The notes beneath the pieces are model-generated. The model did no database searches. It was not told the origin of the DNA and was given only the letters and a program-made list of their open reading frames with translations. The position numbers and the translations under genes were made by a program. A stretch of 35,189 bases of DNA, taken from the NCBI GenBank assembly GCA_017469935.1, contig JAFUFL010000040.1:1-35189 (forward strand). Direction: 5' to 3'. This document shows positions 1,206-32,547 of this stretch, piece by piece (position 1 is the stretch's first letter; every line of letters starts with the position of its first letter). This DNA is from Lachnospiraceae bacterium. GTDB taxonomy: Bacteria; Bacillota; Clostridia; Lachnospirales; Lachnospiraceae.

Positions 1206-4058
1206 ATGATTTCTTTTGAAATGGAAGATCTGATCGGCGTACTGCAGGGATTAAAGCCCTATTTCATCGCCATCGGCGTACTGCTCATCGCCGCGATCAT
1301 CATTACGATCACCGTGGGCAAAAAAGAGAAGAAACTGAGATCTTTGATCCGCGCGCAGTCCTGGATCGCAGCGATCGCGGGCATCGCGATCGTCGTCAAC
1401 ATGATCTGCTTCGGTCCCATGAACACGCTGATCACTCTGGCGACCGGCAGCGGCCAGGTCACGGAGGCGACTACGGCAGAGGCTTCCGAAGCGGCGCTGA
1501 AGATTGCGGAAGAAGGCTTCGTTCTTCTGCAGAATGAAGAGAACCTGCTTCCTCTTACAGGCACAGACAAGCTGAACCTGTTCGGCTGGGCGTCGACAAA
1601 CCCTGTCTACGGAGGAGCCGGATCCGGCGGTATGAATGCGCTGTTCCCGGTCGTAAGCCTGATCGACGGTCTTAAAGGAGCAGGCTTCGAGGTCAATCAG
1701 GAGCTGATCGATTTCTACAAGGGTTACGCGGAAAACAGAGCGGCCGTTTCCATCACGGCGCAGAACTGGGATCTGCCGGAACCTCCGGCCGAAAACTATA
1801 CCGGCGACCTGATCAACAACGCGAAGGCTTATTCCGACACCGCCGTCATTGTCATCTCCAGAATGGCAGGCGAGGGCCACAACGACATTCCGCAGGACAT
1901 GTCACAGGCCTCTTATGTTCAGAATTCGAGCCAGTACAATGACTTCGAAGCGGGCGAGCACTATCTGCAGCTGTCAAAGTCCGAAGAGGATATGGTAAAG
2001 CTCGTGTGCGACAACTTCGACAAGGTAGTGGTTGTCTACAACGGCGCTTATGCTTTCGAGCTGGGCTTTGCCGAGGAGTACAAGCAGATCAAGTCCGTTA
2101 TCTGGGCACCCGGCCCCGGCAACGTCGGCTTTAAGGCCCTGGGCGAGATCATGCGCGGCCAGGTCAATCCTTCCGGCCACACCAACGACACCTTTGTTTA
2201 TGACATCACCAAGGCACCCTACTATAACAACGCGGAGAAGAGGGACTACGCAAACCTCCTCGACCTCACGGTTGAAGGTATGAACGCGGGCGTTCCCACC
2301 AATTATTCTCCTGCTTTCACCAACTACGTCGAGAACATTTACGTAGGCTATAAGTTCTATGAGACGGCTGCCGCAGAGGGCATCATCGACTATGACAAAA
2401 CAGTGCAGTTCCCCTTCGGTTACGGCCTTTCCTACACGACTTTCGAGCACAAGATGAGCGACCTGAAGGTAAACGGCACGCAGATCAGCTTCGATGTAAC
2501 CGTGACCAATACCGGCTCTGTGGCAGGAAAAGACGCTGTGGAGGTATATTTCAATCCGCCTTATACAAACGGCGGCATTGAGAAGGCCAGCGCCAACCTT
2601 GTTCGCTATGAAAAGACCGGCATGATCGAGCCCGGCCAGAGCGAGACTGTCACCATCACCTTCGACCAGGAAGACATGGCATCTTATGACGAAAAGGGTG
2701 CCGGCTGCTATGTTTTGGAAAAAGGCGATTATGTAATTTCTGTAAATGCGGATTCTCACACTGTCTATGACCAGAGGACTTTCACACTGGCTGACACGAT
2801 CACTTACAATGAGGGGAATCCCAGACAGAGCGACAAGATTGCGGCTGTCAACCAGCTGCAGGACGCGCAGGGCGACGTGGTATTCCTCTCCAGAGCGGAC
2901 AAATTCGCCAACTACGATGTGGCGACCGCCGCTCCCGCCGACCTGAACATGCCCGAGAGATATGTTGAGGGTTATCACCTCAATTCCAACTACGATCCCA
3001 TGGCTTATGTGGATCCGAACGCTGAGATGCCTGTCACAGGCAAGAGCGGTTCCCTGAAGATCACGGATGTCAGGGGCAAAGACTACGACGATCCGATCTG
3101 GGAGGACCTCCTCGATCAGCTGACCGTCGATGAGATGGCAAATATGATCGCGCTGTCCGGTTATCAGACTCCGGCGATCCCTTCCATCGGCAAAGTACAG
3201 AACGTCGACAGTGACGGCCCTGCCGCCATCAACAACAACTTTACCGGTGCCGGTTCCATCGGCTTCCCCATTGAAGTCGTGATCACATGCACCTGGAGCC
3301 ACGATCTGGCAACTGAGTGGGGCACCATGATGGGCAAAATGTCCAAGGAAATGAACTCCACAGGATGGTACGCGCCCGGCATGAACATGCATCGCAGCGC
3401 CTTTACCGCCAGAAACTACGAGTACTTCTCCGAAGACGGCGTACTCGCCGGATATATGGCAGCCGACGCTGTGGCGGGCGCCATGAGTGAAGGCGTCTAC
3501 TCCACGATCAAGCACTTTGCCATGTATGACTCCAACGGCAAGATGGTCTGTGCCTGGGCGACCGAGCAGTCCATGCGTGAGATTTACTTAAAGCCTTTCG
3601 AGATCGCGGTCAAGGTCGGCGGCGCCAACGCGGCCATGGAATCCTGGGCCTTTATCGGCAACAAGTGGGCCGGCGAGATCAGCGCGCTCAACAATACCAT
3701 CCTCAGAGATGAGTGGGGCTTCAGAGGCTTTATCGTCTCCGACTTCTTCCGCAACAACGGCCACGGCTTTATGAACGCGGATATGGCGCTGGCAAACGGC
3801 GTCGACGCCATGCTGTCCACCTTCGAGGGCGGTCCCAACCAGGTGACTGATAAGACGGCGGCTTCCAACGTGCAGTATATGCGAAAGGCGACGCACAACA
3901 TCCTCTACACCACGGCTAACAGCTGGGCTTATGACGAGGAGCACCTGCAGAGCGGCATGCCCGGCTGGAAAAAGACGGCCATTGCGATCGATGTAGTGCT
4001 CGCGGCTGCACTGATCGGACTTTCGGTGCTGGCTTTCAAAAAATATAAGAAGCAGTAA
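1206..4058 (+). CDS. Membrane-anchored GH3 family glycosidase with permuted domain order
   Basis: This 950-residue protein is a glycoside hydrolase family 3 enzyme, of beta-glucosidase or related exo-glycosidase type. Two hydrophobic segments (about 15-38 and 51-72) precede the GH3 C-terminal domain, marked by EEGFVLLQNEENLLPL near residue 103. A fibronectin-III-like domain (VTNTGSVAGKDAVEVYF, near 441) follows. The GH3 N-terminal catalytic domain then starts near 625. It shows FSEDGVLAG, IKHFA (K769-H770) and IVSDFF, where D846 is the expected nucleophile. A last hydrophobic helix lies at about 922-945, before a basic tail. The order C-domain, Fn3, N-domain is the reverse of most GH3 enzymes but is known from Ruminococcus albus and Butyrivibrio beta-glucosidases. 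AAGGGAGGT precedes the ATG. Substrate unknown. Confidence 0.88.
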   Translation: MISFEMEDLIGVLQGLKPYFIAIGVLLIAAIIITITVGKKEKKLRSLIRAQSWIAAIAGIAIVVNMICFGPMNTLITLATGSGQVTEATTAEASEAALKIAEEGFVLLQNEENLLPLTGTDKLNLFGWASTNPVYGGAGSGGMNALFPVVSLIDGLKGAGFEVNQELIDFYKGYAENRAAVSITAQNWDLPEPPAENYTGDLINNAKAYSDTAVIVISRMAGEGHNDIPQDMSQASYVQNSSQYNDFEAGEHYLQLSKSEEDMVKLVCDNFDKVVVVYNGAYAFELGFAEEYKQIKSVIWAPGPGNVGFKALGEIMRGQVNPSGHTNDTFVYDITKAPYYNNAEKRDYANLLDLTVEGMNAGVPTNYSPAFTNYVENIYVGYKFYETAAAEGIIDYDKTVQFPFGYGLSYTTFEHKMSDLKVNGTQISFDVTVTNTGSVAGKDAVEVYFNPPYTNGGIEKASANLVRYEKTGMIEPGQSETVTITFDQEDMASYDEKGAGCYVLEKGDYVISVNADSHTVYDQRTFTLADTITYNEGNPRQSDKIAAVNQLQDAQGDVVFLSRADKFANYDVATAAPADLNMPERYVEGYHLNSNYDPMAYVDPNAEMPVTGKSGSLKITDVRGKDYDDPIWEDLLDQLTVDEMANMIALSGYQTPAIPSIGKVQNVDSDGPAAINNNFTGAGSIGFPIEVVITCTWSHDLATEWGTMMGKMSKEMNSTGWYAPGMNMHRSAFTARNYEYFSEDGVLAGYMAADAVAGAMSEGVYSTIKHFAMYDSNGKMVCAWATEQSMREIYLKPFEIAVKVGGANAAMESWAFIGNKWAGEISALNNTILRDEWGFRGFIVSDFFRNNGHGFMNADMALANGVDAMLSTFEGGPNQVTDKTAASNVQYMRKATHNILYTTANSWAYDEEHLQSGMPGWKKTAIAIDVVLAAALIGLSVLAFKKYKKQ

Positions 4059-4245: not shown

Positions 4246-4296
4246 CAAAAATGTGTCACTTGATACGTCCCCGTGTCACACTACCCGTGTCACACT
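4246..4296. repeat. Palindromic repeat, single arm plus partial tandem piece (copy 2)
   Basis: This holds one arm of the repeat family (TGTGTCACTTGATACGTCCC and on to GTGTCACAC), then a short second piece, ACCCGTGTCACAC. The mnmA stop codon (TCA on the plus strand, 4290-4292) lies inside this second piece. The other arm is missing. The rest of the 4150-4245 stretch shows no gene. Confidence 0.85.
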
Positions 4297-6270: not shown

Positions 6271-6300
6271 TGTGACACGGGGACGTATCAAGTGACACAT
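6271..6300. repeat. Palindromic repeat, single arm (copy 3)
   Basis: TGTGACACGGGGACGTATCA continues to AGTGACACAT, matching the left arm of the full element at 17139-17209. It begins 15 bases after the stop of the peptidase E gene and just before its terminator. No opposite arm follows. Confidence 0.88.
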
Positions 6301-6526: not shown

Positions 6527-8275
6527 ATGTATTGTGCAAAATGTGGTGCGCAAATTAGTGAGGCAGATCAATATTGCCCTAAATGCGGCAAGGAGAATAT
6601 CAATTATGTAAAACCTGCGGCAAAGCGTGCCGCCAGGGTATTTGATTCAAAAAAACAACCGATTAAGGAGCCTGAAAAAAACGCCGGGGAAGTAAATAAC
6701 GATTCCACGGAACAGACAATATCCAACAAGGCAAGGAAGAAATCCCTGGCCCTGCCGGCGGGCTGTATTGCTGCGGTGTTAGCGGTTGTTCTTTTCTTTG
6801 CCATTGGACGGGGGAAGCCATCGACCGCAGACAACAGCAGGATCAGCTATCCGCAAAATGAGTTGCAGGCGTTCGTGGGAGCAGAGGATGGTACGGTCTA
6901 TTTTGTCCATGGCACCGAGGTGAGATCTTTTGACGGAAAAGCCGTACAGGGAAAAGCAACGCCCGACAGATCAAAGTTCCTTGTCCGATATGAAGATGGG
7001 AAACTGAATATGTACGGTGATCCGGAAACAGAGCCGGTCTTAGTCAGCGATGACGTCGAAGCACTTTTATATGCGACAGATCGCGGCTGTTTTTATAGCG
7101 GTAAGGGCAATAAAGGGCTCTATTATTATGATTTTGAGTCAAAAGAGTGTATTAATACAGGGGTCGGAACCTCAGACTATATGTTTTCGAGTTCCAAAAC
7201 ATCCGTGATTGGCGTAGAAAAAGAGATGGTCCGAAGTTTTACGATTGGAGAGACTTCTGCAAAAGAATTATTTAATGAAGAGACGGCGGACAATGCCGAG
7301 AACATATGTTGTATTGCGGATGATGGATCCAATTTAATCTGGGCAACCAAGGAAGGAAACATTTTTAATGTCTATATGATGAAGAATAATGTTCCCGAGC
7401 GCATTGGAAAAATCAAGAATGCTGAAGAATACAGTTACATTTTCGGTCAGTTTTACAATGATGATAAATCATTTGTGGTCTATTCAAACGGAAGTGCGCA
7501 AATGATATTAGGGAATAACGGGGAGATCAAGGAGCTGACGCTTCCCTGTGTCAAAAGAGCCGGAGGATTCTGTAACACAAAGGGGGAATATCTCAGGTCC
7601 GATCAGGACTTTATTGAAGAACCTTATTTTATGACAGCAAAAACAAATTCCGCCAAGAACGGAACAATGTATCGTTTGCTTAAAGACGGAACGGTTAAAC
7701 CGGAAGTGGATGGTATAAACCTGGAAAGCAGCTGGTCAGGTACATCAGCTTATTATATCAGAGCCGGGATTATTTATTATCTTGACCAGAACAATGATCT
7801 CAGAAACAAGAAACTCGGAGAAGAAAATGAAAGCGTCCTTATGACAACAGATGTCAGGGCATTTGTAATTCCGGAAAACGGGAAATACGCATACATCATC
7901 AAATCAGGCGGTCTATACGCTATGGACCTGTCAGAAGGCAGTTTCTCACTTAATCCGATCTGGAACTCAATTGGTGAGGAAGACACGTTTTACGTGACGG
8001 ACAGGGATGACACGATCTACTTTATCACCGGGGTGACCGAGATAAAGGACTCATACCGCACGAAGGGAAAACTTTACAAATACACGATCGGCGGTGAGGC
8101 CGAACAGATTGCAGGCAATGTATTGGGACTCATTACTAACGGGCAGAAAAATTACAGTGCTGATCATCCGATTATAAAGCAGTATGTCTCTAATGAAAAA
8201 TACGATTATGTAGTTAATATTGGAACTTGTGTAGAAGGTGAATATAAGGAACTTGTTTCTAAAGTAAAAGATTAA
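6527..8275 (+). CDS. Zinc-ribbon single-pass membrane protein with large extracytoplasmic domain
   Basis: The 582 residues start with a zinc ribbon, with cysteines C3, C6, C17 and C20 in two CxxC knuckles. A charged linker and one membrane helix (about 74-94) follow. The remaining roughly 480 residues are predicted to be outside the cell. They show repeated short strands with patterns such as DGTVYFVHG, RGCFYSG, GIIYYLDQ and DDTIYFITG, suggesting a beta-propeller of DUF5050 or WD-like type. I do not recognise the family. The zinc ribbon would be cytoplasmic, so the protein could link outside sensing to an inside partner (inference). GGGAGGGAG precedes the start. The gene is 11 bases upstream of a second zinc-ribbon membrane protein and probably co-transcribed. 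Its AT-richer codon use differs from neighbours, hinting at a different history. Confidence 0.75.
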   Translation: MYCAKCGAQISEADQYCPKCGKENINYVKPAAKRAARVFDSKKQPIKEPEKNAGEVNNDSTEQTISNKARKKSLALPAGCIAAVLAVVLFFAIGRGKPSTADNSRISYPQNELQAFVGAEDGTVYFVHGTEVRSFDGKAVQGKATPDRSKFLVRYEDGKLNMYGDPETEPVLVSDDVEALLYATDRGCFYSGKGNKGLYYYDFESKECINTGVGTSDYMFSSSKTSVIGVEKEMVRSFTIGETSAKELFNEETADNAENICCIADDGSNLIWATKEGNIFNVYMMKNNVPERIGKIKNAEEYSYIFGQFYNDDKSFVVYSNGSAQMILGNNGEIKELTLPCVKRAGGFCNTKGEYLRSDQDFIEEPYFMTAKTNSAKNGTMYRLLKDGTVKPEVDGINLESSWSGTSAYYIRAGIIYYLDQNNDLRNKKLGEENESVLMTTDVRAFVIPENGKYAYIIKSGGLYAMDLSEGSFSLNPIWNSIGEEDTFYVTDRDDTIYFITGVTEIKDSYRTKGKLYKYTIGGEAEQIAGNVLGLITNGQKNYSADHPIIKQYVSNEKYDYVVNIGTCVEGEYKELVSKVKD

Positions 8276-8286
8276 AGGGGGATAAA

Positions 8287-9201
8287 ATGGAAGAACGTAA
8301 AGATTTAGCAGAAAACAAAGAGGCAGAAGAGGTAAGACAGTTGACGGACGAGCCTGAAGGTGCGAAAGAGCAAGTGATGCAGACTGAAGCGGCGGAATCG
8401 GCAGAAGAATCGTCTGAACCGGAGAAGATTTTCTGCGTAAAATGCGGGGCGGAAGTTGCACCCGGAAACGCATTCTGTCCAAAGTGCGGGCAGAAAGTAG
8501 GAGAAAAAATCGCAGAGGAGAAAGGGGAAAAGTCTCTTCTGTCATCAATCAATTCTACGGGGGCTGACGGAAAGAGCAAAGTGCCGATCATCGCCGGAAT
8601 TGCCGGCGCAATCGTAGCTTTGATCGTAATTATCTTTGTAGTGAGGGGACCGCAGCCCAAAGATGTGACTTTGAACAAAAAAGACATCTCTGTTAAAGCC
8701 GGAGAGACAGTTGTGCTTAGTTATACCATTAACCCCTCCGACACAAAAAATAAGGATGTGACATGGAGCAGTTCTAATGAGTCTATTGCCAAAGTAAGCG
8801 ATGGAACGGTCACGGGTGTCAATGAAGGGGACTGTTCCGTCACTGTCACGACCAAGAACGGGAAAACAGATACCTGCCAGATCACAGTCTTGCCGGCCGG
8901 ACCTGATTTACAGGCGATTTACAACGATTATTGTTCATCTTCCTTTGCCACCCTGGCGACTGACGGCTCCTATTTGAACATTGACACGAATCCTTCGGAT
9001 AAAGACGACTATAATGATTATGAGGCATATGTAGCGGTCACAAATATCAATGCAGCCTTAGGCCTGCCTGATTCCGTCATCAACAGGATGAATCAGACTC
9101 GTTCAATGGATGGCATTCAGACATATACTACGGATGACCTTGAGATCAGCTGGACATATCATCCGAACAGAGGACTTGAAGTCAGCTATACACTAAAATG
9201 A
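8287..9201 (+). CDS. Zinc-ribbon membrane protein with BIG2 (Ig-like) domain
   Basis: This 304-residue protein begins with an acidic region (1-48). A zinc ribbon with C50, C53, C64 and C67 follows, then one membrane helix (about 99-119) and a bacterial Ig-like group 2 domain at about 124-200. The BIG2 signature is clear: VTLNKKDISVKAGET, then VTWSSSNESIAKVSDGTVTG and a CSVTV strand. The last hundred residues, rich in Tyr and Asp, are unassigned. Topology should be zinc ribbon inside and BIG2 outside, parallel to the gene before it. The pair looks like a small operon that ends at the terminator at 9246. The function is unknown. BIG2 domains commonly bind surface carbohydrates or proteins, which is only a hint here. 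Confidence 0.8.
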   Translation: MEERKDLAENKEAEEVRQLTDEPEGAKEQVMQTEAAESAEESSEPEKIFCVKCGAEVAPGNAFCPKCGQKVGEKIAEEKGEKSLLSSINSTGADGKSKVPIIAGIAGAIVALIVIIFVVRGPQPKDVTLNKKDISVKAGETVVLSYTINPSDTKNKDVTWSSSNESIAKVSDGTVTGVNEGDCSVTVTTKNGKTDTCQITVLPAGPDLQAIYNDYCSSSFATLATDGSYLNIDTNPSDKDDYNDYEAYVAVTNINAALGLPDSVINRMNQTRSMDGIQTYTTDDLEISWTYHPNRGLEVSYTLK

Positions 9202-9245
9202 TCACCTTGTGACAGATTTTTGCAATTAGTAATTTGAGTAAACAA

Positions 9246-9278
9246 AGAGATCCCGGAAAAACTCCGGGATCTCTTTTT
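9246..9278 (+). terminator. Intrinsic terminator after the zinc-ribbon pair
   Basis: AGAGATCCCGGA and TCCGGGATCTCT form a 12-base-pair stem around a short A-rich loop and are followed by TTTTT. A second small hairpin (GCCGTT-CATAA-AACGGC, 9313-9329) lies further on. Confidence 0.92.
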
Positions 9279-9345
9279 CAGTTCGCTTGTGTATGATTTC
9301 CTTACCGGCACTGCCGTTCATAAAACGGCGGTGGATTTTTTGAGA

Positions 9346-16355: not shown

Positions 16356-17138
16356 ATGTTCAGGAGAGCGTTCGCATTATTTACAGCAGGCGTTATGATG
16401 GCAGGCGTGTTTGCAGCTGCAGGCAGCATGGGGGCAATGGCGGCAGAGAACACTTCGGAGGCGGCCGCGAAAGAGATCGCGCTTAAGGATGCGGGAGTTG
16501 CGGAAAAAGATGCCTCTTTTGACCGCATCAAGACGGGAACCGAGCAGGGCGTTTCCGTATACGAGATCGAGTTCCGGACGAAGGAAGCGGAATATGACTA
16601 TGACATTGCAATCGCCGACGGCGAGATCGTAAAGGAGAGCCGGGAGCTGATCTTCCCTTCCGCGAGCGGCAATCAGATCACGGAGTCGGAAGCAAAGAAG
16701 ATCGCGACAAAGGATGCGGGCGTCGAGGAGAAAGATGTGAAGTTCACCAAGTTCGGGAGCGACACAGAGGACGGGATCCCGGCCTACGAGATGGAGTTCG
16801 AGAACGAGACGGAGGAGTTCGATTATGACATCGCGAAGGCGGGCGGAATGATCCTGAAGGTATCCAGAACCGTCAAGATTCCCGCTTCGGTCGCACAGAA
16901 GCAGGCAAAGGCCGCTTCCGCGACCGGAAAGACAGGGCGTGAAGCTGCCATCGCGGCGGCACTCGACCACGCCGGCTTTTCTTCCGATGAGGTGTACGGC
17001 CTCAGGTGCGAAAAAGACTACGATGACGGAAGAGAGATCTACGAAGTCGAGTTCAAAAAAGACGGCTATGAGTACAACTACGATATCGACGCCAATAACT
17101 ACAGCGTCCTCGAGTGGGACCGGGATTACGACGATTGA
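16356..17138 (+). CDS. Secreted protein with three PepSY domains
   Basis: The 260 residues begin with a signal peptide (MFRRAFALFTAGVMMAGVFA up to about AMA-AE). Three PepSY-like repeats follow, at about residues 30-100, 107-175 and 190-260. Each has a helix with KEIALKDAG or KKIATKDAG and then an EYDYDIA strand pair. PepSY domains occur as inhibitors or chaperones of extracellular peptidases and in cell-surface proteins; no partner peptidase is next to it. The mature protein is strongly acidic and ends in DRDYDD. The gene stands alone after a terminator. Its stop codon abuts a perfect palindromic repeat. A close paralogue begins at 34670. The exact role is unknown. Confidence 0.88.
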   Translation: MFRRAFALFTAGVMMAGVFAAAGSMGAMAAENTSEAAAKEIALKDAGVAEKDASFDRIKTGTEQGVSVYEIEFRTKEAEYDYDIAIADGEIVKESRELIFPSASGNQITESEAKKIATKDAGVEEKDVKFTKFGSDTEDGIPAYEMEFENETEEFDYDIAKAGGMILKVSRTVKIPASVAQKQAKAASATGKTGREAAIAAALDHAGFSSDEVYGLRCEKDYDDGREIYEVEFKKDGYEYNYDIDANNYSVLEWDRDYDD

Positions 17139-17209
17139 TGTGACAGGGGGACGTATCAAGTGACACATTTTGGAACAAAATGTGTCACTTGATACGTCCC
17201 CCTGTCACA
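17139..17209. repeat. Palindromic repeat, perfect two-arm copy (copy 4)
   Basis: Two 34-base arms (17139-17172 and 17176-17209) are perfect reverse complements around GAA. The arms carry GGGGGACGTATCAAGTGACA, the family core. It fills the whole space between two convergent genes: it starts at the base after one stop codon and ends at the base before the other. The transcript hairpin would be very stable from either side, without a clear U tract. Confidence 0.95.
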
Positions 17210-18505
17210 TTATCCTTTCTTCTCCACGCGAACCCTTCCCTCATGGAGCCTCTCCGAGAAGAATTCCTTGACGGAACACCCGGCGCGGCCGGAGGACGCG
17301 CATGCGCAGGCGCATGCACAGCTCGAAGCGCATGCGCAGCTGGAAGCACAGGAAGAAGCGCAGGAAGAGCGGGGCCTGGAGCTGCCCGACCGGCGCGATC
17401 CGCTGCCGGACCGGTGAGAGCCTCCCGAACGGCGGACAGGGACGTTGATCACATTTACGTGAATGTAGGTGTTGGGACTGCTGCCATAGCGGTAGGTGCC
17501 CGCCCGGCTGTAGTTTTTGGGCTTTTCCAGATCTTTTTCTTCGACGATCTCCTTGCTCTTGATCATACTGCGGCCGCAGTAGGGGCACTCGTCCTTGCCT
17601 TCCACGCGCCCGGCGCCGCAGCTGGGGCAGGTCTCGTAGTACTCGATCTTGGTGCGAACGATCTTCTTTTCGGTGGCACCTGCGGAAGCGGTGCCAAAGC
17701 CGAGACCTTCGGCGACCCAGCGCACGAATCTCACGATCGCGTAGATGGGTATGCCGACGAAAATAATCAGCACGGCAAGTCCGCCGATGACCGCATACAG
17801 GTCGTCATCTTCTTCCTCGTAGCCCCCGCTTCCGGACGATCCGCCGCCTTCGGCCTGCCTGTCCGGAGAAAAGGCAAAGGCGTCATTGGGATAAGCCACT
17901 GTAATCGTGTAGCGCTCGCCTGCCGAGAGGGAAGCCTGGAAGACCAGATAGCCGTCTTCCTGCATGCAGTCCGGCTGCCAGGCGCCGGCCTTGTCCGCGT
18001 TCCAGCGGATGGTCAGATCCTTGACTTCGATCCCGTCGAACCAGGCCGGCGTATAGATGAATGCCGTCTCCCCTTCCGCGAAGCGGTCAATCTGGTACAT
18101 GTGATCCTGGACAAAGGAGTACTCGAAGCTTACCACCTCATCCGCATAGTATTTTCGGTCCAGATAGATGGCCAGCGTCGATCCCTTGTCCTCGATGCGG
18201 CTGATGTTGCTGCTCAGAGCCGTCACGTCGGAGTGGTTCTTGTTGGGAACTCCGATGTCCACCCAATCAAGGGGGCCGTAGGCCTGATCGTCCAGGACTC
18301 TCCAGTCAACGTGGTAGGTCATGAGCAGGGAAGCATCCTCCTGTACGTCAACGGTGATAATGAAGTGCTCGATCTCATCCGTGGGTCCGGCCGCCTTTAC
18401 AGTCATGGCAAAAGGCGTGGAAAGTCCCAGGACCAGTGCGAGCACGACCGCTGCGAGGAGCGATATTTTGGCAAAATAGTGCAGTCTTGATTCATTCGTT
18501 CTCAT
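17210..18505 (-). CDS. Membrane protein with zinc ribbon and Cys-Ala-Ser repeat tail; probable radical SAM target
   Basis: This 431-residue protein has a signal-like helix (about 14-36, then VKAAG), an extracytoplasmic beta-rich domain (40-245), a GGGSSGSGG linker with an acidic patch, one membrane helix (about 257-280), a zinc ribbon (CPSCG...CPYCG) and a Ser/Arg-rich region. The C-terminus has cysteines at 382, 386, 390, 392, 396, 398, 400, 402 and 410, spaced CASS or CA, then GRAGC and a charged tail SVKEFFSERLHEGRVRVEKK. The tail should be cytoplasmic. I chose the ATG at 18503-18505; GAGGAGG is 8 bases upstream and it overlaps the radical SAM stop. Domain identity is uncertain; the N-terminal part recalls DUF2207 or TIGR04222-type proteins. 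Function unknown. Confidence 0.82.
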   Translation of the reverse strand: MRTNESRLHYFAKISLLAAVVLALVLGLSTPFAMTVKAAGPTDEIEHFIITVDVQEDASLLMTYHVDWRVLDDQAYGPLDWVDIGVPNKNHSDVTALSSNISRIEDKGSTLAIYLDRKYYADEVVSFEYSFVQDHMYQIDRFAEGETAFIYTPAWFDGIEVKDLTIRWNADKAGAWQPDCMQEDGYLVFQASLSAGERYTITVAYPNDAFAFSPDRQAEGGGSSGSGGYEEEDDDLYAVIGGLAVLIIFVGIPIYAIVRFVRWVAEGLGFGTASAGATEKKIVRTKIEYYETCPSCGAGRVEGKDECPYCGRSMIKSKEIVEEKDLEKPKNYSRAGTYRYGSSPNTYIHVNVINVPVRRSGGSHRSGSGSRRSGSSRPRSSCASSCASSCACASSCACACACASSGRAGCSVKEFFSERLHEGRVRVEKKG

Positions 18506-19902
18506 CAGCAATACCTCCTCAGAGGGCATTCGCCCGTCATTTCGGCAGAGTAATCGCGCCGGGTCTTGCAAGTCGCGCTGTCCCAGATAACGTTCCAGTT
18601 GTCAGTGAGCATATTGCCCAGCGGCTTATCGTCGAGCCAGCTCTGGCAGGGCACCACATTGCCGCCGGGAGTGACGGCCATATTGGAGAGGCAGGCTCCG
18701 CAGGACGGAGAAGGGATATTCAGCTCTTCAAAGATCTTATCGTCCAGCCAGCCGGGGGAAGTGAAGGCAATCTCCATGCCGTGCTCATGGCAGTAGGAGA
18801 CTGCGCCGCGCAGAATTTTTTCTAGCTCTTCACTGCTCAGCTGCAGGGCCTCCGACTCGGGCTGCGCGGCCCCGCCCGTGGTGATCAGGCCCGAGCAGGT
18901 CACGTAGATGACGCCGAGCTCGTGCAGGAGCTTCAGGGTCTTCTCATAGTCCCGGTTGAGCGTGCACAGCGGCGTGTTGATGCTCACGGAAAGGCCGGCC
19001 TCCAGGGCATTTTTGATCCCTGCCAAAGTTTCGTCGTAGCGGGCGGCGCCGACCAGCCGGTTGTGGATCTCGGCGTCCGCCGAGTAGAAAGTGACCTGCA
19101 CGCTGTCCAGCTCCGCCTGGCGGAGCTTCTTGCAGTAGGCGGGAGTGAGACGGATCCCGTTCGTGTTAAGTCGGGAGATGAACCAGCGGGCGTGCTGAAT
19201 GAGATCGATCAGGTCCTCCCGCATTGTGGGCTCGCCTCCCGTGAAGGTCACCTGCGGGATGCCGGCGCTGCGGCAGGCATCCAGGATCCTTTTCCAGTCG
19301 GCGGTGGAGAGCTCTTCTTCGCCGGAAAGAGTCTGCCCGGCGGCATAGCAGTGCACACATTTCTGGTTGCAGTGCCAGCGGCCGCCCTTGGTCATGGCAC
19401 TGACCATCAGGTCCATGCGATGGGGCGCCTGCATGAGGGGCGCGTACTCGCCGATGCTCATGAAATATACATCCGTGGTCACTTCTTCGCGGTAAGCGAT
19501 CTGGCTGATCGTCGTGTAAATAGTCTGCAGATCGTTCGTGATCCGGTCGAGGGAATAGAGCGGGAGGATCTGCTTCACATTGCCGGCCGTGCGCTCCAGA
19601 ATGCTCTGGATATCCATCTCGCCGATTGCTCTTCCGTCGAAGCGGTTTGTCTCCCGGATGAGCTCTGCCAGCATGACGGCCCAGATGAAGTTAACCGGCA
19701 GTATGTCGGTCCCGTTGATGATGGCGACGCTGGGATTGAGAGTGTCCTCCTCGGGCTTTGGGGGAATCAGATGGATGCGGATGGCACCCGGACCGTCGGG
19801 ATTCAAAGTTGTATGCAGGACTTCACTGAATGCGAAATTCATGTAGGCCTTGAGATTTCGAGCTGTCTTTGTCCATCGGAAAAGAAAAGGAATCTTTGCC
19901 AT
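18505..19902 (-). CDS. Radical SAM/SPASM-like protein (putative peptide or protein maturase)
   Basis: This 465-residue protein has the radical SAM cluster motif C178-x3-C182-x2-C185 in WHCNQKCVHCY. GGEP is at 222-225, and SVSINTPL is a typical barrel strand. A Cys-rich C-terminal region has C401, C404, C419, C445, C459 and the terminal C465, suggesting SPASM-like auxiliary clusters with reduced spacing. The first 150 residues may hold a PqqD-like recognition domain (inference, weak). The start at 19900-19902 is supported by AAGGA just upstream, and homology-like sequence begins there. Its stop and the ATG of the Cys-rich-tail gene share one base (TGATG). Maturases of ribosomal peptides have this architecture. 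Substrate unproven, but the neighbour is the obvious candidate. Confidence 0.87.
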   Translation of the reverse strand: MAKIPFLFRWTKTARNLKAYMNFAFSEVLHTTLNPDGPGAIRIHLIPPKPEEDTLNPSVAIINGTDILPVNFIWAVMLAELIRETNRFDGRAIGEMDIQSILERTAGNVKQILPLYSLDRITNDLQTIYTTISQIAYREEVTTDVYFMSIGEYAPLMQAPHRMDLMVSAMTKGGRWHCNQKCVHCYAAGQTLSGEEELSTADWKRILDACRSAGIPQVTFTGGEPTMREDLIDLIQHARWFISRLNTNGIRLTPAYCKKLRQAELDSVQVTFYSADAEIHNRLVGAARYDETLAGIKNALEAGLSVSINTPLCTLNRDYEKTLKLLHELGVIYVTCSGLITTGGAAQPESEALQLSSEELEKILRGAVSYCHEHGMEIAFTSPGWLDDKIFEELNIPSPSCGACLSNMAVTPGGNVVPCQSWLDDKPLGNMLTDNWNVIWDSATCKTRRDYSAEMTGECPLRRYC

Positions 19903-28518: not shown

Positions 28519-31500
28519 ATGGGCAGGACGATCCGTATTTTTATCAGTTCAACGTTTAAGAGATTTGACAAGCTGCGAAACGACCTCATGGGGGAGGTAT
28601 TTCCGGAAATCAGGGAGCTCTGCGGAAAGAACGGTTTTTCCTTTCGCGTGGTTGACCTGCGGTGGGGAATTACGGACGATGAGGGGAGAAACCACCAGGT
28701 GGCGGATATTTGTTTTGAAGAAATCCGCAGGTGCCAGGAGTACTCGCCGTCCCCCAATTTCATTGTCCTGTCGGACGACTATTACGGGTGGATCCCGATT
28801 CCCGCTTCAATTTCTTCCTATTGCTGGGAAAAGATCAGCGCCCATCTGGAAAAGACGGATCCGGCCTCGCTTTCTTTTTTGAAAGGATGGTACCGGGAGG
28901 ATACAAATTCGCTTGAAGGGGTCTATATTTTGCAGGACGAGTATGCTCCTGCCGAAAACGGCGAAAAGCGGACGCTGGATCAAAGTACGGAGGAGCAGAT
29001 CGGTAATATTCTTTTCCCGGCGGCGCAGGCCGTATTTGCGGACGATTACGCCCTGCGCGTGGCCTTCGGAGGGTCCATGACTGAGCAGGAGATCAATCTG
29101 GGACTGTTCTCCCGGGAGGGAGCGGGCAGACATACGCTCGTAATGATCCGGGAGGCGGAGAAAGCGCCCGGCGAGGCGGACGGCCGGTCGGAATTTAACG
29201 CACATAATCTGAATGAGCGCCTCAAAAGGGTGACGGAAGAGGCAGGCAATCCCTGGATTTCGCTGGAAGACGGGAAATGTCTGGAGAAGGCGCGCAAGTT
29301 CCTGAAAAGAATCGTAGAAGAACAGATCAGGAAAGTGCAGGAGGCGGAAAAAGCAGAAACGCTTTTCAACAGAGAATGCAGGGAACTGAAGGAGGCACTG
29401 GAGGCAGATACCCGGACCTATATCGAGGTCGGGAACAGGATGACGCAGCTGCGGGAATTTTCCGAAAAAAATCGCGGCAGGGTGTCTCTTGTAAAAGGGA
29501 GGCAGGGAATCGGGAAATCCACTCTGCTCAAAGCATGTGTATGCCGGCTCCCGGAGCAGTTTATCGGCGTGTTTGCGGATCTGCAGGGGGAACGGGGGAG
29601 CGTGGATACGGCCCTCGGCTTTTTGCTGGAGACTTTGTATCAGCGCGGCATGTTGACAAAAATGACACCGAAAAATCCGGGAGAGAGCAGCGCAGGGTAC
29701 TTTGAGAGGCAGATGGAAGGACTGCGCGGAGGAACGCAGGTCACACTGGTCATAGACTGCGCGGAGCAGATCTATGATTTTCGGATGCAGGACGAGAGTC
29801 TCTTCTCCATGGAACTGCCGGAAGGGGTGTCGCTTCTGATCAGCTGTGTGGACGAAGGTGCGCTTTCCGCGACAGATCTTGCGTACAAGCCACCCGTTCT
29901 GGAAATAGAGGATATACAAAAGCCGGAAGGGCTTCCCATGCTTCTGGGAATGCTGCAGGGGTATGGGCGGACGCTGTCGGAAAGACAGCAGGAGGTGCTA
30001 AGGCGGGCACTGCCTGACAACGTGACGCCCCTTTATCTGCGCCTTCTTGCCGCGTCTCTCAGAAATGTGCGCGGTTATGAGGAGGACTTCCTCCTGCGGG
30101 AGGGAGGAGAGGACGGAGACAGAAGGCCTCCATCGGATGAAAAGAGCCGGTTTGAAAAAAAACTGCCGCAGGAGATCCGTCTTCTGCTCCGCGGATCTCT
30201 GGAAAAAGAGATGCGGACAAGCCTCCCCGGGCTGTACCGGCACATACTGGCCTGTGTCGCTTTGAGCGCACAGGGGCTCAAAGAGGAAGAATTGATTGAG
30301 ATCCTGCTCCGGAGAATGCCGGAGGGCAGCAGTCTCTACAATGAGATCTTAAAGAGCAGTCACTGGGAGATCCGGGACCTGCGCCATGTCATCAATGTCT
30401 ACTGGGCGCGAATGCACTTTCAGATGGAACACCTTTTGGGGATCTACCCGTCGAACGGGGACCTGCTGATCCGCTTCCGCCATGACATGATGCGGGAAGA
30501 GGCGCTGGAAGCTGCGGGAGAACGGATCGCCGAAGAATCTTCCGGTACGATCCGCGATTACTGGATGGAACAGAGTGTTTATATCAGTACGGAACCCACC
30601 GTTGTGAACCGCCGCCGCGCCGATGAGCTGATGCCCGCTCTTCGCCGCAGGAAGGAGAAAAAGGCAATCGGGGAACTGCTGGAGGACTGGTATTACCTGG
30701 ACGCAATGGTCCGCCTGGACCGGCATGCCGTACTGACCGGTTTCCTGGAAGAAGCGCGAAAAGAGGGGTACGCCGGACGAAACGGAGAGGCGCTTCTTGC
30801 TCTGCTGCAGAAATTCCGCATCCTTCTGACCGGATTTCCGGACAGTTTTCTGCCGCTGTGCGTGCAGCAGGGACTGGCCGGTCCGACGCTGCTGTCTGTG
30901 ACCGGCTCCAACGGGTATTTCCTTTACGGAGAGCCGGTTTATGTGGGAGACGGGCGAAGGAACAAGGAGGAGGGAAATTCCGGATTCTCCGGATTCGACA
31001 ATCGGCACCGGCAGGACAGTATATGGGAGAAAGATCCGGAACTCCAGATCCCCGGGAGCGGGAGTGCCCCGATGGCACTGCGCGGCGACGGGATCATGGC
31101 GGTCATGGACCGCGGCCAGATCCGCATCTATGACTGGAACCGCAGGCGCTACTCGGCCGCCAAAAGTCCGGCGCAGAAACAGAATTATGATTTCCTGTAC
31201 TGGGAGGGGGACACGCTGGTCCTCCGCAGAGCGAAGTCCAGGATACGGTATCATTATGAAAAGATGCAGAAAGGCAAAGCAGAAGAGCTTACAAAACTGC
31301 AGGAGGAATCCTGTCTGACCGTGATCGACCTTTTTGAGGAAAAGGAAGAAAAACGCAGAATGGCGGGAAGCCTGCAGGAAGAGGAGGCGGCCGGAAAGCG
31401 GACGAAACGGCAGATTTCTTATTACGGACGGGACGGCGTGTGCCGGCAGAGAATGCTGGAATATCCGCTTGACATCGAGATCGAATACTATATGCGCTTC

Positions 31501-32547
31501 GAGCAGGCGGCTGTGGTAAAGGACCGCGAGGAGATCGACTTTGTAAATCTCGACACGGGAACCGTGCGCGAGACAATGAAGCTCGCAAACGTGACGGGCG
31601 TTTTCTTTGCCGATGACGGAGAGAGCGTGCTCATTCGGACAAGAGCTGACAGCATCCTCCTGCATCGCATCGCGGACAGAGCGCCGCGCGCCTTGCCCAG
31701 ATGGACGCAGAGCGAAGAAGAGAACCGGAAATCCCTGCGCCGGTATACATTCCGGAAAGACTTTTCGCCTGCCGTCCTTTTCGCGCTGCGAAAAAAGAGG
31801 GATATACCGTGGCAGCCGGAAACGGACCCGGCAGAGGGCACTCCGTCTCCCACTCTGACATGCATGTCTGCGGAAGAGGAGTGGTTTGCGTGCTATTATC
31901 ACTTTAACAATATTTCAACGGTAAGGGTGTTTGATCTGAGCACGGGCGCAGAGATCCTGTCCTCGGAGACGGAGCCCGTGTACCGGAGGGATATGGAACG
32001 GCAGCCGTTCCGGGCAAAAGATCACGGAAGGAAACTTTGTCTTCGGTCCTGCGGCACCGTGCACGTCCTGGACCTGGACACCGGGACTCCGTCCTGGAGC
32101 AGAGAGCGGGGCCAAAAGGACCTGCCGATCGGAGAGACCGAGAGGAATATGATTGACGACTGCCGGCGGCACATGTGGCGGTGGATTCCGCACGGACAGG
32201 CCTATGAATCTCTGGAGGATATGACTAACAATACGTTTGATACGGCTGTCGGGAGAATGCTTTTCCGTATCTTGAGGGTCGTGCTCTTCCCTCTCACCCA
32301 TGCGCTTATGGCGGAGAAGTTCAACAATCCGGAGCAGGTCTATGCGCCGCAGATCGTGCGGACAGAGCGGAATATATGGCTGATCGATCCCATGTACCGA
32401 ACGGTCCATATCGCGGATCCGGGCGGGAAATGGCTCTGCCATACACAGGTGGAAGGCCCTTTTTCCGCGGCGGATGTATGCGGGGATACGCTGTATCTGA
32501 TGTCGGAAGATAAGAGCAGGATGCAGGTGCTGCATTTTCATTCATGA
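28519..32547 (+). CDS. DUF4062-STAND NTPase with C-terminal beta-propeller, possible antiphage or signalling protein
   Basis: The 1342 residues begin with a DUF4062 domain: IRIFISSTFKRFDKLRNDLM, FRVVDLRWGIT and then VLSDDYYGWIP. A P-loop NTPase follows, with Walker A GRQGIGKS at 327-334 and Walker B-like VTLVIDCAEQ (D413). A helical middle region (about 540-820) follows, and a C-terminal part (about 830-1340) with repeated FDLSTGAE, LDLDTGT and VNLDTGTV strand-turns suggesting a beta-propeller. This order of domains is found in eukaryotic NWD1/NWD2 and TEP1, and in bacterial STAND proteins linked to phage defence. DUF4062 is thought to have a TIR-like fold (from memory). GGGAGCAGG lies before the ATG. 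Long charged insertions make many domain borders approximate. Function is inference. Confidence 0.82.
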   Translation: MGRTIRIFISSTFKRFDKLRNDLMGEVFPEIRELCGKNGFSFRVVDLRWGITDDEGRNHQVADICFEEIRRCQEYSPSPNFIVLSDDYYGWIPIPASISSYCWEKISAHLEKTDPASLSFLKGWYREDTNSLEGVYILQDEYAPAENGEKRTLDQSTEEQIGNILFPAAQAVFADDYALRVAFGGSMTEQEINLGLFSREGAGRHTLVMIREAEKAPGEADGRSEFNAHNLNERLKRVTEEAGNPWISLEDGKCLEKARKFLKRIVEEQIRKVQEAEKAETLFNRECRELKEALEADTRTYIEVGNRMTQLREFSEKNRGRVSLVKGRQGIGKSTLLKACVCRLPEQFIGVFADLQGERGSVDTALGFLLETLYQRGMLTKMTPKNPGESSAGYFERQMEGLRGGTQVTLVIDCAEQIYDFRMQDESLFSMELPEGVSLLISCVDEGALSATDLAYKPPVLEIEDIQKPEGLPMLLGMLQGYGRTLSERQQEVLRRALPDNVTPLYLRLLAASLRNVRGYEEDFLLREGGEDGDRRPPSDEKSRFEKKLPQEIRLLLRGSLEKEMRTSLPGLYRHILACVALSAQGLKEEELIEILLRRMPEGSSLYNEILKSSHWEIRDLRHVINVYWARMHFQMEHLLGIYPSNGDLLIRFRHDMMREEALEAAGERIAEESSGTIRDYWMEQSVYISTEPTVVNRRRADELMPALRRRKEKKAIGELLEDWYYLDAMVRLDRHAVLTGFLEEARKEGYAGRNGEALLALLQKFRILLTGFPDSFLPLCVQQGLAGPTLLSVTGSNGYFLYGEPVYVGDGRRNKEEGNSGFSGFDNRHRQDSIWEKDPELQIPGSGSAPMALRGDGIMAVMDRGQIRIYDWNRRRYSAAKSPAQKQNYDFLYWEGDTLVLRRAKSRIRYHYEKMQKGKAEELTKLQEESCLTVIDLFEEKEEKRRMAGSLQEEEAAGKRTKRQISYYGRDGVCRQRMLEYPLDIEIEYYMRFEQAAVVKDREEIDFVNLDTGTVRETMKLANVTGVFFADDGESVLIRTRADSILLHRIADRAPRALPRWTQSEEENRKSLRRYTFRKDFSPAVLFALRKKRDIPWQPETDPAEGTPSPTLTCMSAEEEWFACYYHFNNISTVRVFDLSTGAEILSSETEPVYRRDMERQPFRAKDHGRKLCLRSCGTVHVLDLDTGTPSWSRERGQKDLPIGETERNMIDDCRRHMWRWIPHGQAYESLEDMTNNTFDTAVGRMLFRILRVVLFPLTHALMAEKFNNPEQVYAPQIVRTERNIWLIDPMYRTVHIADPGGKWLCHTQVEGPFSAADVCGDTLYLMSEDKSRMQVLHFHS

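Follow-up and report, generated by a model that had tools for sequence, protein, structure and literature searches.

What purpose is served by a radical S-adenosylmethionine (SAM) enzyme encoded beside a membrane protein that ends in a dense run of cysteines? This question is raised by two overlapping minus-strand genes in a stretch of 35,189 nucleotides from a Lachnospiraceae bacterium (GenBank assembly GCA_017469935.1, contig JAFUFL010000040.1), called the window here. The favored explanation is that these genes constitute a two-gene modification unit, in which the enzyme probably modifies cysteines in the cytoplasmic tail of the membrane protein, this tail staying in place. The analysis shows the adjacency of the genes, their overlap, their co-occurrence, the invariance of the tail and the predicted fold of the enzyme; the identity of the substrate, the topology and the recognition role of the enzyme's N-terminal domain are inferred, and thioether chemistry and the final role of the tail are guesses.

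The enzyme gene (18505..19902, minus strand) encodes a radical SAM/SPASM protein of 465 amino acids plus stop, a putative maturase whose open reading frame (ORF) without the stop spans 18508-19902. It is followed by the gene of the putative substrate (17210..18505, minus strand), a membrane protein of 431 amino acids plus stop. The junction between the two, noticed in the initial annotation as a TGATG overlap, is indeed present: the A of the enzyme stop TGA (18507-18505) is also the first base of the tail gene's ATG at 18505, a one-base overlap, and within the enzyme gene the sequence shows GAGGAGG (18514..18520, minus strand), a good site for ribosome binding ahead of the tail gene. An antisense ORF of 436 amino acids (17180-18490, plus strand) also overlaps the tail gene, but it is the minus-strand frame that conservation follows.

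The tail protein, P0001, is built from several parts, all on the minus strand and numbered here one higher than when counting from the ATG. An outer beta domain (P0001 44-207; 17888..18379) is modelled with a predicted local distance difference test (pLDDT) score of 80-96 over this block, and a membrane helix (P0001 236-267; 17708..17803) is indicated by the structure model and by hydrophobicity, the two hydrophobic segments of the protein being found at 11-29 and 239-257 counted from the ATG. Beyond the helix lie a zinc-ribbon-like part, CPSCG...CPYCG (17543..17662; TackOD1 match, E 0.00079, 19.5 bits, under the cut-off of 32), a variable, low-complexity linker of Ser, Gly and Arg, and finally the cysteine tail CASSCASSCACASSCACACACASSGRAGCSVKEF (17261..17362). 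Its nine cysteines, at P0001 positions 383, 387, 391, 393, 397, 399, 401, 403 and 411, agree with the tail described initially. The zinc-ribbon-like part is present in 8 of 13 aligned tail proteins and missing in the other five; these short forms (L011-L015) identify it as an optional insert. At loci L215-L222, shorter tail proteins (frames of 311-390 residues) also occur, with the tail kept. The outer domain is a distant relative of DUF2207: the Pfam model PF09972 gives 12.9 and 15 bits, under its cut-off of 24.4, and the hhalign comparison of the first-type (window-type) domain profile with DUF2207 gives 96.1% (E 3.7e-9), against 0.3% for an unrelated control. Weak Foldseek likenesses of this domain to M1 aminopeptidase and OST1 domains were not used.

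Do the two genes belong together? In a set of 150 family genomes that includes the source genome of the window, the enzyme was detected in 13 (E <= 1e-30) and the tail protein in the same 13, the genes adjoining on one strand with the enzyme first in all 13. The search for the tail was extended to 397 family genomes with a profile of the whole protein and a profile of the tail alone, the enzyme being searched in the 150. The whole-protein profile matched 33 genomes, corresponding to 27 complete tail proteins, one tail-less homologue (G082) and five partial matches. The tail-only profile returned the same 27 proteins as strong matches (E <= 4.4e-11), and two weak ones, G069 (E 0.004) and G748:C19 (E 0.0096), were read as chance. 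The enzyme gene lies next to the tail gene in all 27 cases, although the contig at L212 holds only the end of the enzyme gene. A pairing by chance is therefore not credible, and the pattern that the initial annotation had named as damaging, tail homologues commonly lacking a radical SAM neighbor, was looked for in these 397 genomes and was not seen. The homologue without a tail (1 of 28) ends soon after its membrane helix, and no enzyme was matched in the G082 genome (E <= 1e-30) or in the 14 kb around the homologue gene; the latter is followed by a 235-residue ORF with a C-x6-C-x2-C stretch, which is unlike the enzyme and presumably resembles DUF5131 proteins. Three of the five partial matches were read at the locus level (the others being G061 and G094): G073, one of the 150 genomes, and G770 (L225 and L224) match by the zinc-ribbon stretch only, without tail or enzyme, and G789 (L283) encodes a 539-residue protein that has no cysteine tail, with no enzyme relative nearby.

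The tail itself is strikingly constant. Named relatives were taken as the best 80 loci from a scan of an 84,980-species collection; being the most similar, they give no view of the enzyme in more distant genomes. Most carry titles of Lachnospiraceae assemblies from rumen and gut; the nearest listed is Lachnospiraceae bacterium UBA4260 (98%), and a cultured relative, Sarcina sp. DSM 11001 (L094), is also among the matches. A full tail protein was found in 73 of them, its first part up to the contig end in six, and at L107 only 361 bases were left. The core of the tail reads C-[A/T]-C-A-C-A-C-A-[SS/GG]-G-R-A-G-C-[S/T]-x-K-[D/E]-[F/L]. Its five core cysteines (four alternating and that of GRAGC), together with the R, G and K, are identical in all 73 complete relatives, in tails that hold 7 to 11 cysteines when counted from 60 residues before RAGC. 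Since the core cysteine codons vary (TGC 211, TGT 154) and the residues do not, this conservation exceeds chance. The gene overlap amounts to one base in 38 and to four bases in 20 of the 73 relatives, taking the in-frame ATG nearest to the enzyme stop. The same set bears on the orientation of the tail, which had been placed in the cytoplasm from the start: Lys and Arg are more numerous after the second membrane segment than before it in 60 relatives, equal in 9 and fewer in 4 (mean 3.05 versus 0.82). This charge pattern and the zinc-ribbon-like part fit a cytoplasmic location.

Is the enzyme then attached to the tail or to the outer domain? As a control, ordinary DUF2207 proteins were collected over the Pfam cut-off, giving 28 matches in 24 of 149 phylum genomes. 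Their C-termini are Gly/Ser-rich with 0 or 1 cysteine in the last 60 residues in all 27 readable cases, the frame of the 28th being broken or misassembled. A tblastn search with 43 enzyme rows around all 28 genes, mostly over 4 to 6 kb in either direction and less at contig ends, gave no match at E <= 1e-3. The absence of an enzyme relative near these genes argues that the enzyme accompanies the cysteine tail and not the outer domain.

The enzyme carries the radical SAM cluster motif C178-x3-C182-x2-C185 reported initially (19348..19371, minus strand), invariant in 13 of 13 aligned enzymes. Pfam Radical_SAM scores 84.6 bits (cut-off 29.5) and SPASM 27.6 bits (cut-off 21.5), the latter over a SPASM/twitch region at residues 401-455 (18538..18702, minus strand). 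Six further cysteines near the C-terminus (401, 404, 419, 445, 459 and 465) are all present as described; C401, C419 and C459 are invariant in 17 of 17 aligned rows, and C465, the last residue, is not conserved among the aligned relatives. The N-terminal domain (residues 29-136; 19495..19818, minus strand), made of strands followed by three helices, resembles by fold comparison a RiPP recognition element (RRE), RiPPs being ribosomally synthesized and post-translationally modified peptides. Counted by the first aligned residue, the fold alignment starts at model residue 29-42 for SuiB and at 41 for SkfB. SkfB, SuiB and CteB, all peptide maturases, are the nearest folds to the predicted structure, and the sactipeptide enzyme SkfB is also the top sequence match. 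By its model the enzyme is thus closest in fold to the peptide maturases of the radical SAM/SPASM (twitch-like) type, with an RRE-like N-terminal domain. NCBIfam offers no assignment over its cut-off among the 25 best matches listed (best 105.4 bits versus 500), and a named family for the gene pair was rejected, as neither NCBIfam nor Pfam provides one. At L077, the enzyme gene (7521-9323, minus strand) contains an in-frame tandem repeat with units near VSGGRKEAREGLP within the N-terminal domain.

The association is not limited to one kind of tail. An enzyme profile matched 92 of 398 phylum genomes at E <= 1e-30, and the loci of the best 30, the window among them, were retrieved. Three further types of cysteine-tail protein adjoin related enzymes, and the gene order is reversed in two of them. 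The second type (ten loci, L037-L046: eight full tails, one ended by the contig and one masked) has the tail GC[A/H/Y]CVSCACACVSCACACACAGGxGAGC, and in the three loci read in more detail LemA is adjacent and a TPM domain is fused or adjacent. The third (4 of 4 loci) ends in SCACACACACA-xx-GGCT and the fourth (3 of 3: L060 with G432 and G245, lower profile rows picked for frames resembling L060) has CHSA repeats ending in SGGAR; in both, the tail gene precedes the enzyme. The outer domains of the first and second types are clearly related (E 1e-43), and the DUF2207 comparison yields 97.1% with the third type and, over 84 columns, 94.8% with the fourth, the same control being at 0.3%. The 14 other loci of the best 30 have no cysteine-tail neighbor; a small antisense ORF at L057 with 7 cysteines in 30 residues was not counted as a tail. 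A midpoint-rooted tree built from 43 enzyme sequences separates the 29 that belong to the four tail types (including L043, whose tail was unread) from the 14 others with 100/100 support.

How does this pair compare with known systems? The radical SAM RiPP maturases SkfB, CteB and SuiB likewise combine a radical SAM barrel with a SPASM/twitch region, their genes lie beside a cysteine-rich partner, and SkfB and SuiB appear by fold to have a comparable RRE-like N-terminal domain. Their partner, however, is a short leader-core peptide, whereas the window encodes a 431-residue protein with an outer domain, a membrane helix and cysteines at its end. The closest precedent is provided by PMC12452194, in which subsets of TIGR04222 membrane proteins with cysteine-rich tails are proposed as substrates of multinuclear non-heme iron-dependent oxidative (MNIO) enzymes. 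There too, a low-complexity, cysteine-rich C-terminal tail on a membrane protein adjoins a RiPP-type enzyme, which sets a precedent, with another enzyme class, for such a tail as a substrate. The two systems differ in several respects: the partner is an MNIO and not a radical SAM enzyme; the TIGR04222 proteins have several membrane segments and a tail placed by the authors in the periplasm, whereas the present one is predicted to be cytoplasmic; and the link is loose, 490 of 1372 genomes lacking an MNIO, against none of 27 tails without the enzyme here. None of the 13 tail-protein rows matches TIGR04222 at E up to 1. The NCBIfam model TIGR04117, by name a Cys-Xaa-Xaa-Xaa repeat radical SAM target protein, resembles the CHSA repeat of the fourth type; it has 98 positions, its best match (L071) reaches 11.8 bits versus a cut-off of 50, and it does not match P0001. 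At L070-L072, the neighbor of a radical SAM gene encodes a DUF2207-like membrane protein that ends with 9 or 10 cysteines at four-residue steps (CHSA repeats), and these tails may connect TIGR04117 peptides with membrane proteins. The DUF2207/TPM/LemA envelope proteins share with the tail protein an outer beta domain, a membrane helix, a cytoplasmic part and a low-complexity end, but the ends of DUF2207 proteins lack the cysteine-rich character of the window type and its adjoining enzyme. Literature searches covering open-licence PubMed Central papers found no paper describing the pair.

On these grounds a mechanism can be proposed. The RRE-like domain would recognize and bind the adjacent membrane protein, and the cytoplasmic CA repeat would enter the active site, where SAM-derived radicals would act on the tail cysteines, most likely linking their sulfur to a carbon of the backbone or of a side chain. 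The product might be a ladder of thioethers along CACACACA; in the sactipeptide ruminococcin C, alanine can act as the acceptor. The lysine and the aromatic residue after GRAGC, both kept, may be recognition elements or acceptors. The tail would be neither cut off nor exported and could persist on the membrane protein as a cytoplasmic end that is stiffened or binds metal. Genetic evidence, with 27 of 27 tails adjoining the enzyme, strongly backs the initial proposal of a membrane-protein tail and not a free peptide as far as the partnership goes, the modification being putative.

Several observations weigh against this explanation. The CX2CX5CX3C part of SPASM is missing in the 13 enzyme rows of the window's type, being complete in 3 of 4 aligned second-type rows. 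The seven-cysteine SPASM motif, which serves two auxiliary clusters, is thus incomplete in this subfamily; the SPASM domain as such scores over its cut-off. Pfam PqqD stays under its cut-off of 23.4 in all 11 enzymes scanned (best 16.5 bits, best E 0.011, with matches in distant relatives only). The tail is predicted to be disordered (pLDDT about 30), no single recognition sequence after the repeats is common to the four tail types, an ABC-transporter-like ORF at 8 of 46 loci leaves room for export there, and the CxC repeats might do no more than bind metal or undergo oxidation.

This last point leads to the quite unlikely case of an unmodified metal- or iron-sulfur-binding arm, where the enzyme docks or takes electrons to act elsewhere. 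CxC repeats occur in metallothioneins, and the tail adjoins the zinc-ribbon-like part in 8 of 13 proteins; but this ribbon is dispensable and the tail is not, the nearest enzyme folds are peptide maturases, the enzyme gene sits on the opposite side of the tail gene in two other types, and no common third gene is available as the true target. The latter was established over 46 loci chosen from those fetched: no third gene family is found in more than 8, nor is any peptidase or exporter common to more. Because the simple caller picked the antisense frame at some of these loci, the pair itself scores 39 and 37 of 46, figures that do not reflect true absences. It is less far-fetched, if still not the probable outcome, that the tail undergoes another radical SAM chemistry than thioether formation (a carbon-carbon bond, epimerisation, or conversion of cysteine to formylglycine or thiol oxidation), an alternative to be set against repeats made of Cys and Ala, core cysteines that are never lost and SkfB as the first sequence match.

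Cleavage and release of the modified tail, as a RiPP with a membrane-bound leader, appears improbable. The tail does stand at the end of the protein after a variable, low-complexity linker, and export could be envisaged for 8 of the 46 loci because an ABC-transporter-like ORF with a zinc ribbon is found near the pair (e.g. L150, 9271-11343, minus strand), which may be an exporter or just a common gene family. Nevertheless, the lack of a more widespread third family argues against peptide release, and the tail side is predicted to be cytoplasmic. That the genes are chance neighbors held by common descent, the tail being a GC-rich repeat artefact, is barely credible: the DNA is repetitive and carries a long antisense ORF, but the cysteines are retained despite codon changes, the tail-less homologue has no enzyme, four tail types exist in both gene orders, and the co-occurrence already speaks against it.

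Modification of a tail kept in place can tentatively be generalized, with somewhat less than even confidence, to a class of bacterial membrane proteins, with four tail types in several families of the phylum, whose C-terminal cysteine repeat would be cross-linked in place by a radical SAM enzyme dedicated to it and equipped with an RRE-like domain. The result would be a lasting cytoplasmic tail, either rigid or able to hold metal, without leader removal, export or released product. The TPM and LemA neighbors of the second type point to a role in envelope upkeep. If true, radical SAM peptide chemistry would no longer be confined to small secreted products but would also shape ordinary membrane proteins, and the poorly understood DUF2207/TPM/LemA envelope proteins would gain a chemically testable handle. 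With just two genes, present in numerous Lachnospiraceae assemblies from rumen and gut, the unit lends itself to a direct test by co-expression.

Other features of the window deserve a brief mention. A perfect 35-base inverted repeat with a 3-base loop (17138-17210) sits between the genes of the tail protein and of a PepSY protein, which converge. Related half-sites, bearing 1-3 mismatches, recur elsewhere in the window at four places (among them 307-365, 4253-4279 and 6272-6298), where none is expected; the repeat looks like a dispersed palindrome of the repetitive extragenic type and may serve as a terminator as well. The protein of 1342 residues encoded at 28519-32547 (plus strand) has a DUF4062 domain at its N-terminus and might be guessed to be a large NTPase of the defence type. 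Finally, a glycoside hydrolase family 3 protein (1206-4058, plus strand) has its two Pfam domains in swapped order, the C-terminal domain preceding the N-terminal one.
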